DNA from: Xanthomonas sacchari
GTDB taxonomy: Bacteria; Pseudomonadota; Gammaproteobacteria; Xanthomonadales; Xanthomonadaceae
DNA: 64,000 nt
NCBI RefSeq assembly: GCF_024266585.1
Contig: NZ_CP100647.1
Span: 186,001-250,000 of the forward strand
Reading direction: 5' to 3'
In this document: piece after piece, positions 24,236 to 30,181 of the stretch
How the letters are laid out: each line of letters starts with the position of its first letter
Position numbering within the stretch: position 1 is the stretch's first letter
The notes under the pieces: generated by a model
Told to the model about the DNA's origin: nothing
Database searches by the model: none
What the model saw: only the letters and a program-made list of their open reading frames with translations
Made by a program: the position numbers and the translations under genes

Positions 24236-25579
24236 CTACTTGCCGATACAGAAGCTGGAGAAGATCCGCCCGAGCAGGTCGTCGGCGCTGAGCGTGCCGA
24301 CGATCTCGCCAAGCGCGGCATGGGCCAGGCGCAGTTCCTCGGCCGCCAGTTCCAGGCGTTCGTGTTCCAGCTCGGCGGCGGCCGCGTCGACGTGCGTGGC
24401 GGCGCGCTGCAGCGCGTCGACGTGGCGGGCGCGTGCGGAGAACTCGCCGTCGCTGCCCTCGCCGGCCGCGGCGCCGGCGATCGCGCGCAGCTGCGCGTGC
24501 AGCTGCTCCAGGCCGCTGCCGGTGGCGGCGGAGACGTAGACGCGCTCGGCGCTGGCCGCGGGCACCGCGGCGAGCAGATCGCTCTTGTTGTGGATCCACA
24601 GGCGCTGCGGCACGTCGGCGATGGCGTCGGCGATCGCGGCCTGGCCGGCCTCGGCCTGGCGCGCATCGAGCACGATCAGCGCCAGGTCGGCGCGCTGCAG
24701 TTCCTGGCGCGCGCGGCGCATGCCCTCGCGCTCGATCGCGTCGCCGCCTTCGCGCAGGCCGGCGGTGTCGACCAGGGTCAGTTCCACACCATCCAGGCGC
24801 ACGGTCTCGTGCAAGGTGTCGCGGGTGGTGCCGGCGATGTCGGTGACGATGGCGCGGTCGCTGCCGGCCAGCGCGTTGAGCAGGGAACTCTTGCCGGCGT
24901 TCGGCGGGCCGACCAGCACTGCGTGCAGGCCATCGCGCAGGCGCCGGCCGCGTTCGGCGTCGGCACGCAGCTGCGCCAGGTCCGTGCGCGCCTGTGCCAG
25001 GCCAGCGCGCACCTGCGCACCGCCCAGCGTGTCCAGCGCCTCGTCGGCGAAATCGATCGCCGCTTCGACGTGGATGCGCAGGCGGATCAGCTGTTCGGCC
25101 AGGTCGTCGACGCGGCGCGAGAACACTCCGTCCAGCGAGCGACGTGCCGCGCGTGCGGCGCGCAGGTCGCCGGCGGCGATCAGGTCGGCGATCGCCTCGG
25201 CCTGGGCCAGGTCCAGCTTGCGGTTGAGGAAGGCGCGCTCGCTGAACTCGCCCGGGCGCGCCGGCCGCGCGCCCAGTTCGCAGCAGCGCGCCACCAGGTG
25301 CCGCAACAGCACCGGGCTGCCATGCGCCTGCAGTTCCAGCACATCCTCGCCGGTGAAGCTGCGCGGCCCCGGAAACCACAGCGCGATGCCGTCGTCCACG
25401 ACCTCGCCGTGCGCGTCGCGAAAGCGCGCGTAGCGCGCGCTGCGCGGCACCAGTGCGCCCAGCCCCAGGCCCGCGGCGATAGCCGCCGCCGCCGGGCCGG
25501 ACACGCGCACCACGCCGACCCCGCCCGCGCCGGGAGCGGTGGCGATGGCGGCGATGGTGTCGGTGGCGGAAGACGGCAT
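24236..25579 (-). CDS. mnmE: tRNA uridine-5-carboxymethylaminomethyl modification GTPase
   Basis: A 447-residue MnmE. With MnmG it installs cmnm5 on wobble U34 of certain tRNAs. The tetrahydrofolate-binding N-domain starts [28 protein letters not shown]. The G domain has [14 protein letters not shown] (G1), DIAGTTRD (G2), DTAGLRE (G3) and NKSD (G4). The C-terminus ends with the catalytic CIGK motif. The usual neighbour yidC is displaced here by the NodB-caspase gene 31 nt upstream. Confidence 0.97.
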
Positions 25580-25610: not shown

Positions 25611-28352
25611 CTACAGCGTCTGCAACTGGCCGCGGACGTAGGCCGCCGACGCGCCGTTGGGTTGCAGCGCCAGGTAGGTCTGGAAGGCGCGCTTGGCCTT
25701 GGCCGCATCGCCCAGCTGGCGGTAGGCGTCGCCCAGGTTGACGTAGGCCACCGCGCGCGAGGGATCGATCTTCAGCGTGTTCTCCAGCCAGCGCACGGAC
25801 TGCGCGTACTTGCCCTGGCGATAGTAGATGAAGCCCAGGTTGTTGGCCGCCAGCGCGAAGTCCGGGCGCAGCTTCAGCGCCTCGGTGAACTGCGCCTCGG
25901 CCTCGTCGTAGCGCTTCTCCTTGTACAGCTGCAGGCCGCGGTCGTTGGCGCGCTGCGCCCGCTGCCGGTCGGACACCGGGCCGGCCGCGGCCGGCACCGC
26001 CAGCGGCCGTTCGCCGCCCTGCAGGTCCTTGACCACCACCGCCGGCTTGGCCGCGGCGGCCGGGGCAGCTGCGCTGCCGCCGCCGGCCTTCGGCGTCGCG
26101 GTCGACGCCGGCGCGGCGGCATCGACGCGATCGTTCATCGCGATCGCCGCCGAGGACAGCTGCTGGGTGCTGGCGGTGAGGAATTCCTCGCCCTCCGGCA
26201 CCTGCAGCACGAACTCGCCGCCCTGCGACCCCGGCAGGCTGCCGAACGCCGGAGTCTGCTGCGAAATGCTCGACACCGCCGGCGCCACGTAGGCGGCCAG
26301 CTCGGTGCCGGTGATCAGGCCGTCGCCGTTGAGATCGGCCTTGCCCGACAGCGCCTGCAACAGCACCCAGGTGAACACCGAATGGCCATTGGGGCCGCTG
26401 TCGGCGACCTGCTGGTCGGCGCCGCCGGCGGTGAGCATCTGCCGGGCGATGCGCCGCGCGTTCTCGCGCAGGTAGGCGCTGGTACCGCCGCCGCGGGTCA
26501 GGCCCAGGCCGCTGTAGCACGCATCCATCACGAACAGCACGTGCTTGGCTTCCAGACTCTCGGCGATGTCCTGGATCTCGGTCATCGGAATCGCGTCGGT
26601 GGCGAACTGCGCCGGGTCCGAGTCGGCGGGCACGATGTAGCCGAGGTCGCGTCCGGAGGCCAGCTTGCGGGTCGCGCCATGGCCGGCGAAGAACACGAAC
26701 ACACGATCGTTCTTGCCCACGCCGCCGTGTGCGAGCCGATCGTGGAAGGCAGCCAGGATGTTGTTGCGGGTGGCCTCCTGGTTCTTCAGCACGATCACCT
26801 GCGACGAGGGGAAACCGAAGCTGCCGGTGAGCGTCTGCGCGATCGCCTGCGCATCGTTGGCCGCGTACTGCAGCTTGGGCCAGTGCGCGTAGTCGTCGAT
26901 GCCGATCACGATGGCCCACGACGTGTCGTAGCCGCTGGTCACCGCCGGTGCGGCGGCGTTGCTGGCCGCGCGCGCGACGCTGAAGTCGCGCCCGTTCCAG
27001 GCGGCGAACTGGTAGCCGTCGGCGCTGAGCCGGTCCAGGATCTGCGGCAACGCCTTGACCGTGCGCGCGTGGATGTCGTGGAACAGCAGGATGCCGCGCT
27101 GCTCGCGGCCGACCTGCTCGAGCACGCGCTGCACGATCGACTCCGGCACCGGATCGGCCCAGTCCAGCGAATCCACGTTCCACATCACCGACTTCAGGCC
27201 GGCCTCGCCGAGGATCTGCATGCCCTCGGCGTTGCGCGCGCCGTAGGGGAAGCGGAACAGCGGCGCGCGCTTGGCGTCGACCGCGCGCAGCATGCGGTCG
27301 GTGTCGAGGATCTGGCTGCGCAGCGCGGCGCCGGTTTCCTTGGACAGCTGCGCATGGGTCAGGCTGTGGTTGCCGACGGTGTAGCCCTGCTCCATCAGGC
27401 TGCGGCTGACGCTGGCCAGCGGCGACAAGTCGACCTTGCCATCCGGCTCGAGCTTGCCCAGGTTGCGGCCGACCTCGAAGAACGTGGCCGGCACGTCGTA
27501 GCGCTTGAGGATGGCGACGATCTCGTCGGTGTATTCGCGGTGCGGGCCGTCGTCGAAACTCAGCACCACGGTCTTCGGCGGCAGGTCGCGGCCGAACACC
27601 TCGCGGTCGCTGTCCTGCATCGACATCGGGTACGGGGTGATCACGCCGTAGTCGCGCAGGATCGCCTCGCGCGTGTACAGCGTGCCCAGGTGGGCGACGT
27701 AGTCCTCCCACTTCTCGCGCTTCTGCACGATCGCGCGGGTGCGGTCGAAGCGGCTGAAGATCGCGGTGATCTCGCGGTTGTAGGTGCGTTCGATCTCGTC
27801 GAGCGCGTCCAGGTCCTCGCCGATGCGCTGGTGCAGCTTGATCGCCGGCAGCGAGGAATCCTTGCCGATGCGGACCTGCCAGTCGGCGAGGAGTTCGCGG
27901 AACGCTAGGCGGTCGGCGTCGTACAGGTCCGGCGCCGATTCGACGTAGTCCAGCAAGCTGCCGACCGCGGCGAAGCGCTGCGGGTCCGGCAGCGCCAGCA
28001 GCGCATCGAACTGCTTGGCCAGCGCCTCGCGGCGCTCCAGGCCCTCGTGGAACAGTTGCTGGCCGACGCTACTGGAGGTCTGGCGGTCGGCCGGCGATTG
28101 TTTGGCCTCGTCGGCCAGCAGCACGATGATCTTGCGCTGCGCCGCCAGCTGCGCCTGCAGGCCCTGCAACAGCGTCGTTGCCTGGGTCTGCAGTGCGGGC
28201 GAGCCGGGAATGGCGATTGCCGACGCGGGCGACGCGGGCTTGGCTGCAGTGGTCTCGCTACCGGTGGGCGGACGCTGGCAGGCGGCCAGCGCCAAGGCAA
28301 GCAGGCCGATCACGGCCACGGACGGCGACAACGGACGACGACGCTTGCGCAT
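25611..28352 (-). CDS. Lipoprotein fusing NodB polysaccharide deacetylase, caspase-like peptidase and TPR domains
   Basis: A 913-residue protein. A lipobox (LALAAC, lipidated Cys about residue 25, followed by Gln) predicts an outer-membrane lipoprotein. Residues 50-220 are helical and unrecognised. A NodB deacetylase domain spans about 255-450: SFDDGP (D267, D268), NHSLTH (H329, H333), RFPYG, and LLFHDIH (H425). A caspase-like C14 peptidase spans about 475-720, with the His in FFAGHG (H558) and Cys in MDACYSG (C612), plus a calcium-type loop [12 protein letters not shown] (673-684). After an Ala-rich linker, TPRs fill 796-913. All key residues for both enzymes are present. Substrates are unknown; action on peptidoglycan or exopolysaccharide coupled to proteolysis is inference. 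The start follows a weak ribosome-binding site. Confidence 0.9.
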
Positions 28353-28418: not shown

Positions 28419-28444
28419 CAACGCCCGCCGGAGGGCGGGCGTTG
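28419..28444. terminator. GC-rich hairpin between yidC and the NodB-caspase gene
   Basis: CAACGCCCGCC (28419-28429) pairs with GGCGGGCGTTG (28434-28444) around a 4-nt loop, just downstream of yidC. No T-tract follows on the minus strand, so it may attenuate, or protect the yidC transcript, rather than fully terminate. Confidence 0.6.
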
Positions 28445-28450
28445 TCGGGT

Positions 28451-30181
28451 TTACTTCTTGGCCTTGGCCGGCGGCTTGCCGCTGCCGCCACCGCCGGCGC
28501 TGGCCGGTTCGCCGTGGCGCTTGGTCATCCACCACTGCTGCAACAGGCCCAGCGATCCGTTGGTGACCCAGTACAGCACCAGACCGGACGGCACGAAGGC
28601 CATCATCACGCCGAACACCAGCGGCATGAACTGCATCATCTTGGCCTGCACCGGATCCATGCCCGGCGACGGGGTCAGCTTCTGCGTCAGCCACATCACC
28701 GCCACGTTGATCACCGGCAGGATGAAGTACGGATCGCGCGCGGTCAGGTCCTGGATCCAGCCGAACCACGGCGCCTGGCGCAGTTCCACCGACTCCACCA
28801 GCACCCAGTACAGCGCGAAGAAGATCGGCATCTGGATCAGCACCGGCAGGCAGCCGCCCATCGGGTTGATCTTCTCCTTCTTGTACAGCTCCATCATCGC
28901 CGTCTGGAACTTCTGCTTGTCGTCGCCGTAGCGCTCCTTGAGCTGCTGGATGCGCGGCTGGAACTTGCGCATCTTGGCCATGCTCTTGTACTGCGCGGCC
29001 GACAGCGGATACAGCACCAGCTTCAGCAGCACCACCAGGCCGACGATCGACCAGCCCCAATTGCCCAGCAGGCTGTGCAGGTGGCTGAGGATCCAGAACA
29101 GGCCCTGGCCGAGCAGCGCCATCAGCGAGAAGCGGCTGTAGTCGACCACGCGGTCGAGGCCGCGCACGTTCTCCTTGGCGATCTGGCTGACCAGCTTCGG
29201 CCCGACCCACAGGCGCGCCTCGGTGCTGGCGCTGGCGCCCGGCGCCACGGTGAAGCCAGGGCCGCGCGCTTCGATCACATGTCGCGGGCCGTCGTTGGAC
29301 AACACGTACACCGCCTGCTGGTCGGCCTGCGGAATCCAGCTGGTGAAGAAATGGTGCTGCAGCAGCGCGATCCAGCCACCGGAGATGGTCTGGTTGAGCG
29401 GGCCGTCTTCCAGGTAGTCCTTGAACGCGCGGCGCTGGTAGCCGTCGGCCGGGCTGAACCAGGTGGCACCGTTGAAGCTGAAGGAATCCGGGTTGGTCAT
29501 GCCGCGGCTGACGATGGTCGGCACCCGGCTCAGCTTGCGGAACACGTAGCCCTGCCACGGCTTGCTGCCATGGTTGACGACCTCGTCGTGCACCTCTATC
29601 GCGTAGTGGCCGCGTTGCAGGGTGTAGACGCGGCGGATGCTGACGCCGTCCGGGCCGTTCCACACGAACGGCACCTGCAGGCTGTCCTGGCCCTTGGCCA
29701 GCACGTAGTTCTTGCCCGGCTCCTCAGGACGGAACCCGCCCGGGCCCGGCGACGGCGAATTGTGCTCGCCAACCCAGCCGCTGGTGGCGGTATACGGATG
29801 CGCCGGGTCCTCGGTCAGCAGCTGCACCGGCGGGCTGCCGGGCTGCTTGGTCTGCGGGAACTGCAGCAGGTCGGCGTCGAACACGCTGCGGCCGTCCAGG
29901 GTCAGACGCAGCACGTCGGTGGTGACGGTGACCCGCGGCGCGGCGCTGGCCGCGGCGGTCTCAGGCGTGCCGCTGGCCGGCGTGGCGCCGGGCACCGAGG
30001 CCTGCGGAACGGCCGGCGCGTGCGTGGCGCCGGCATCGGCGTCCTGCGCCGGCGGCACCGTGGTCGCCGCCGCGACCGTCGCCGCATTGGCGCTGGGCGC
30101 GTGTTCCTTGTTCCACTCCATCCACAGCAGGGCCGCGACCATCAGCCAGGCGAAAATCAGGAAAAGGCGGGTCTGGTTCAT
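28451..30181 (-). CDS. yidC: Membrane protein insertase YidC
   Basis: A 576-residue gram-negative YidC. It has an N-terminal membrane anchor ([18 protein letters not shown]), a large periplasmic beta domain (about 75-350) and the five-helix insertase core. The core includes [20 protein letters not shown] with its conserved groove Arg region nearby, [21 protein letters not shown], and the C-terminal [21 protein letters not shown] low-complexity Ala/Thr/Pro linker separates anchor and beta domain. It begins 18 nt after rnpA ends; the small yidD gene often found here is absent. Confidence 0.97.

Follow-up and report, generated by a model that had tools for sequence, protein, structure and literature searches.

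In a 64,000-nucleotide stretch of the Xanthomonas sacchari genome (NZ_CP100647.1, positions 186,001 to 250,000 of the forward strand; hereafter the window), a single minus-strand gene joins a CE4/NodB deacetylase, a caspase-type peptidase and tetratricopeptide repeats (TPRs) in one chain. This fusion is an orthologue of the Xanthomonas-type metacaspase named by Asplund-Samuelsson, Bergman and Larsson in 2012 (PMC3501461), and is thus already known; because the fusion is in print, the window adds one member. Beyond the description given in the accessible parts of that paper, our comparison contributes relatives in the Betaproteobacteria without a canonical lipobox, a candidate substrate pocket, an EF-hand-like loop and data on loss. 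We give about even weight to the proposal that the protein is a calcium-responsive protease cutting after Arg or Lys outside the cytoplasm, sharing its chain with a peptidoglycan-type deacetylase; the roles of calcium, coupling, self-cleavage and the substrate are what we infer in this proposal.

Domain architecture and the published family

The fusion frame reads from 28352 down to 25611 without an internal stop. Its product begins with a lipobox, followed by a helical region without a family name, the deacetylase, the caspase-type module and the TPRs, as laid out here.

25611..28352, minus strand: deacetylase-caspase-TPR fusion gene, 913 residues, 98.7 kDa precursor
28278..28352, minus strand: signal peptide and lipobox, residues 1-25, with LAAC at 22-25 and Cys25, read by eye
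27588..28217, minus strand: N-terminal helical region, residues 46-255
27003..27587, minus strand: CE4/NodB deacetylase module, residues 256-450
26193..26924, minus strand: caspase-type peptidase module, residues 477-720, with His558 and Cys612
26478..26504, minus strand: loop following Cys612, residues 617-625, containing the invariant Arg620, a putative self-processing site
26301..26336, minus strand: EF-hand-like loop, residues 673-684, inside the caspase module
25614..25967, minus strand: C-terminal TPR domain, residues 796-913

The three domain types read from the sequence in a preliminary description of this gene were all recovered above Pfam cut-offs: Polysacc_deac_1 (PF01522; residues 256-388, E 5.5e-27), Peptidase_C14 (PF00656; residues 478-673, E 3.2e-22) and, among several TPR models, some of them below cut-off, TPR_1 and TPR_2 (the latter at E 2.4e-18). 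Measured against the CE4 motif list, the deacetylase module has the complete set (FDDGP 266, NHSLTH 328, RFPYG 367, NVDSLDW 392 and LLFHD 422) together with the fold. We kept the best 80 of 261 loci found in a contig scan (59 non-betaproteobacterial and 21 betaproteobacterial) and aligned the window protein with 38 sequences chosen from them. Both catalytic modules look intact, as had been proposed, since D267, D268, H329, H333, H425, H558 and C612 lie where they were placed and are invariant in 39/39 sequences. The domain order is likewise kept in all 39, down to 62% identity, with the deacetylase and TPR models matching every sequence and the caspase model 38 of them at E 0.1. Conservation along the chain is highest in the caspase module, and the linkers are variable, with 4/26 positions invariant in residues 451-476 and 11/75 in residues 721-795. 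Between the window protein and its counterpart in Xanthomonas sp. NCPPB 1128 the identity is 97%.

We rejected the possibility that separate genes had been joined by an assembly error or frameshift, because the fusion, nearly full length and stop-free, is present at 88-100% identity in 16 of the 20 genomes sampled from the genus, among them that of the window. In addition, five pairwise comparisons gave every domain a ratio of non-synonymous to synonymous substitution rates under 1, the minimum falling each time in the caspase module (0.02-0.23); the high GC content probably damps the synonymous rates.

An undescribed architecture, as the preliminary description had supposed, is equally untenable, since the same three-domain fusion, with its Cys-His dyad and TrmE neighbour, was published in 2012 (PMC3501461). 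In its accessible parts, that paper gives the layout as a deacetylase (PF01522), a metacaspase with a conserved Cys-His dyad and one to three TPRs, lists hosts in Xanthomonas, Xylella, Stenotrophomonas and two Acidobacteria, and describes a trmE operon while suggesting a tie to the cell death reported in Xanthomonas. The window gene shares the domain order and dyad, falls with its 98.7 kDa into the family's 97-100 kDa range, and likewise adjoins trmE, with yidC upstream, so that the gene itself shows no difference from the family as described there. No Acidobacterium appeared by title among the best 80 of 261 relatives.

The N-terminus points to export and anchoring. The signal peptide was identified by eye and the lipobox by eye and by script, and the preliminary assignment of an outer-membrane-type lipobox was borne out: LAAC ends in Cys25, which is invariant in 15/15 aligned family sequences, and the script found a lipobox in 55/59 non-betaproteobacterial loci (the exceptions being L037, L072, L075 and L074, the last truncated by its contig end). 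Residue 26 is Gln, which by the Lol +2 rule predicts placement in the outer membrane. Taken from the sequence, this export and anchor signal should leave every domain of the fusion either periplasmic or surface-exposed.

The helical region is modelled by AlphaFold2 with a mean predicted local distance difference test score (pLDDT) of 80.9. No Pfam family matched it in the window protein, scattered weak matches appear in other members, and Foldseek with the region alone returned no confident fold match (best E 0.55). As an observation in its own right, this N-terminal region is a conserved domain.

Proposed protease specificity, EF-hand-like loop and rival explanations

The proposed specificity comes from the caspase module, in which Asp500 and Asp610, both invariant in 39/39 sequences, align with the acidic pocket that receives the basic residue in yeast metacaspase-1. 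The fusion has in common with metacaspases and orthocaspases of the C14B type (yeast metacaspase-1, 4f6o; metacaspase-4; metacaspase-9) the His/Cys dyad and, by alignment, these two acidic residues, whereas it differs from them in its export signal and anchor, in the attached CE4 deacetylase and in the EF-hand-like loop inside the module. The ligand positions of that loop (673, 675, 677 and 684, following the EF-hand pattern) are kept in 39/39 sequences; in loci L123 and L125 the pattern persists with swaps, and in L122 with Gly678 changed. In two further loci, L017 and L124, the caspase module is about 44-46% identical to that of the fusion; its catalytic Cys lies within DACYGG, and a canonical EF loop is absent.

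On the proposal given above, the caspase module would be a calcium-responsive protease cutting after Arg or Lys, and the deacetylase would act on peptidoglycan-type amino sugars, giving the protein a location at the wall. Its protein substrate or partner would be recruited by the TPRs, and calcium or envelope damage would switch the protease on. The active protease would then process its own chain, with Arg620 and the linkers around 451-476 and 721-795 as candidate sites, or else cut an envelope protein bound by the TPRs, so that the protease would be the core function and the deacetylase a targeting or effector arm. Self-cleavage of the fusion is possible. The preliminary suggestion of glycan editing coupled to calcium-linked proteolysis at the surface or in the periplasm thus stands in part: the protein looks exported and anchored, and the invariant EF-hand-like loop makes a calcium link plausible, although the EF-hand score lies under the Pfam cut-off. 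The xanthan-like glycan named there as one substrate to test is not favoured here, and a xanthan-specific role was rejected as the main explanation, since Janthinobacterium, Massilia, Polaromonas and Thiobacillus also have close relatives of the fusion. A component of a defence system was also rejected as the main explanation, the PADLOC matches being a generic caspase model together with weak TPR and PDC matches.

Several observations weigh against a calcium-responsive, self-processing protease at the wall. Pfam EF-hand_5 scores 12.6 bits on the window protein, below its cut-off of 25.9, and an EF-hand model matches 18/39 sequences at E 0.1. The full-length model is weak over the caspase module (pLDDT below 50 at residues 611-660 and 670-721), and the geometry of pocket and loop rests on sequence alignment for this reason. 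Arg620 was dropped as a family-specific processing site: it is also found in 3/4 caspases of other proteins, and so is no special processing signal. The sparse gene context shared by the betaproteobacterial loci (see below) means that context does not confirm a role at the wall. Finally, the fusion is dispensable, as the losses described below and its sporadic occurrence show: it is present in 72 genomes out of 395 in the family (8 genera out of 54; match at E 1e-60) and in 3 of 369 genomes of an evenly drawn sample of the class, the window's own genome being included in both counts.

The full-length model has a predicted template modelling score (pTM) of 0.35, and the structural matches listed for it span the deacetylase and TPR parts only, so that they bear little on the caspase fold; one caspase-fold chain, 7a41_B (MALT1), was nevertheless a Foldseek match at E 3.8e-6. 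The top structural matches of the full-length model include Bdellovibrio Bd3279, by way of the deacetylase module. The fusion differs from CE4 peptidoglycan deacetylases such as SpPgdA, PdaC, Bc1960 and Bd3279 in that its CE4 module sits in a larger chain with a protease and TPRs.

The published link to cell death offers a different explanation, in which the fusion is the executioner of Xanthomonas programmed cell death, activated by stress and maturing from about 100 to about 55 kDa, with its caspase activity killing the cell. According to earlier work cited in the accessible parts of the 2012 paper, antibodies to caspase and PARP cross-react with the combined deacetylase-caspase product of X. 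campestris pv. glycines, and the cell death fails to occur in mutants deficient in caspase (PMC3501461); DEVD-cleaving activity has been described in dying X. campestris cells (PMC4006831, as far as that text was accessible), and the fusion is the sole caspase-family match in the genome of the window. The activity measured there is on an Asp-type substrate, however, whereas the pocket is by alignment of the basic-residue type, the fusion is predicted to lie outside the cytoplasm, and we found no targeted deletion of the fusion gene in the open-licence literature. We therefore regard the executioner role as quite unlikely. The metacaspase-like acidic pocket argues, as a prediction, that the DEVD cleavage reported in Xanthomonas is not the fusion's own activity. 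Since the cell-death claim rests on such Asp-type caspase substrate assays (PMC4006831, in its accessible parts), the comparative data sharpen that question: the one caspase-family match of this genome has a pocket that is acidic and metacaspase-like by alignment and is predicted to be extracytoplasmic. The family had thus been described, and evidence from antibodies and activity measurements had connected it with cell death, in the parts of the 2012 paper available (PMC3501461), but we found no enzyme assay of the fusion in the open-licence literature.

Alternatively, the deacetylase may come first, editing peptidoglycan or another amino-sugar polymer, with the helical N-terminus capping its cleft and the caspase serving merely to remove the cap or release the enzyme. 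The helical region is matched in fusion-bearing genomes only (3/369 of the class, E 1e-5), and in Bd3279, one of the top structural matches just named, the cleft of the CE4 domain is covered by a helical cap at the N-terminus, according to the accessible parts of the structural report (PMC4876506). Yet it is the caspase, rather than the deacetylase, that is most conserved, the helical region alone did not retrieve Bd3279 among the 50 Foldseek matches listed, and at the pTM given above the interface between helical region and deacetylase is not established; we judge this arrangement unlikely, if somewhat less so than the executioner role. That the two enzymes are independent, linked by a common anchor and TPR scaffold with neither controlling the other, would suit the variable linkers, but the constant module order down to 62% identity and the His/Cys pair kept in 39/39 sequences speak against it, and it seems to us rather improbable. 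The calcium-responsive Arg/Lys protease is thus the reading that we prefer. A more far-reaching form of it appears doubtful as a whole: in this form the calcium-gated protease outside the cytoplasm would control the peptidoglycan-type deacetylase on its own chain, by cleaving that chain or a TPR-bound partner, the system would have passed laterally between Betaproteobacteria and Xanthomonadaceae, and another protein would be the source of the caspase-3-like activity that marks Xanthomonas death.

Betaproteobacterial relatives and possible lateral transfer

Among the best 80 relatives, 21 are from Betaproteobacteria and are 62-66% identical to the window protein. They come from Janthinobacterium, Massilia, Polaromonas, Rhodoferax, Undibacterium, Thiobacillus, Hydrogenophilales and unclassified metagenome-assembled genomes (MAGs), and they offer a route to test function without a plant pathogen. 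A canonical lipobox was absent, by eye and with uncertain starts, from all 20 of the 21 N-termini inspected, and a hydrophobic stretch was present in each of the 20; in L091 and L107 a Cys preceded by Leu lies inside this stretch.

The window protein is more similar to these relatives than its neighbour is. Against five betaproteobacterial genomes, mnmE is 49-56% identical and the fusion 62-65%, whereas in comparisons with one Stenotrophomonas and another Xanthomonas the values are 78 and 75% for mnmE and 75 and 75% (best segment) for the fusion. This excess of fusion identity suggests, from sequence comparison, that the fusion passed laterally between Betaproteobacteria and Xanthomonadaceae. 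In a tree of the 39 sequences the two groups lie on opposite sides of one branch (100/100), the Xanthomonadaceae side taking in the MAG loci L077 and L080, with L069 and L070 outside the tree. With L122 as outgroup, Undibacterium splits first and the Xanthomonadaceae are nested among the Betaproteobacteria (96/91), a topology that would suit transfer from a betaproteobacterial lineage; we do not rely on it because of the long outgroup branch and the unusual composition of the Undibacterium row. The N-terminus of L122 is lipobox-like, and the anchor type has therefore probably switched at least once.

The yidC/mnmE-flanked arrangement was found at 0/21 betaproteobacterial loci, and no neighbour cluster unites more than 5 of the 21. 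The one cluster that does reach them spans 18 loci, 5 of them betaproteobacterial, and from its sequence we take it to be an ABC-transporter ATPase, a common gene.

Some copies lie in contigs of doubtful label. Those of L069, L070, L077 and L080, on Azonexus or Betaproteobacteria MAG contigs, are 70-75% identical in the best segment, lack yidC and mnmE, and represent either recent transfer or mis-binning. A 72% identical copy on a contig filed as Bacillus subtilis SK7B5 (L101) is probably contamination from a Xanthomonadaceae.

Gene neighbourhood, distribution and loss

The fusion lies between two genes on the same strand.

24236..25579, minus strand: mnmE (trmE), conserved downstream neighbour, its start taken at the ATG of 25579, 31 bp past the fusion stop
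28451..30181, minus strand: yidC, conserved upstream neighbour
28419..28444, minus strand: perfect GC-rich hairpin between yidC and the fusion, without a following T run

Both neighbours flank the fusion in 51 of the 59 non-betaproteobacterial loci. The other eight comprise three contig ends (L038, L040, L074), the four MAG contigs just named, and Stenotrophomonas koreensis (L086), in which the fusion comes after mnmE, judged by match positions.

In the family, at least 5 of the 72 matches (G124, G219, G266, G327, G375) have stops or splits or are a fragment only, which may reflect decay or draft-assembly faults. In an evenly drawn sample of the phylum, 8 of 398 genomes matched at E 1e-40, the window's own included; one of these matches (G1015) is the caspase part only and another (G831) is split with stops. 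The four genus genomes without the fusion have yidC adjoining mnmE; we read this as loss. In two (L115, L117) the gap of about 133 bases gave no match better than E 0.3; L116 contains a 22-residue stretch resembling the fusion C-terminus (64% identity, E 0.001 for this locus alone), and in L118 yidC and mnmE are spaced more widely, by about 1.2 kb that include a TPR-like stretch (38%, E 4.5e-5). Both stretches are possible remnants of the C-terminal part.

The hairpin folds with a z of -2.1, equally good folding occurring in 4/200 shuffles, and was not called as a terminator in a promoter/terminator scan; it could set the yidC and fusion transcripts apart.
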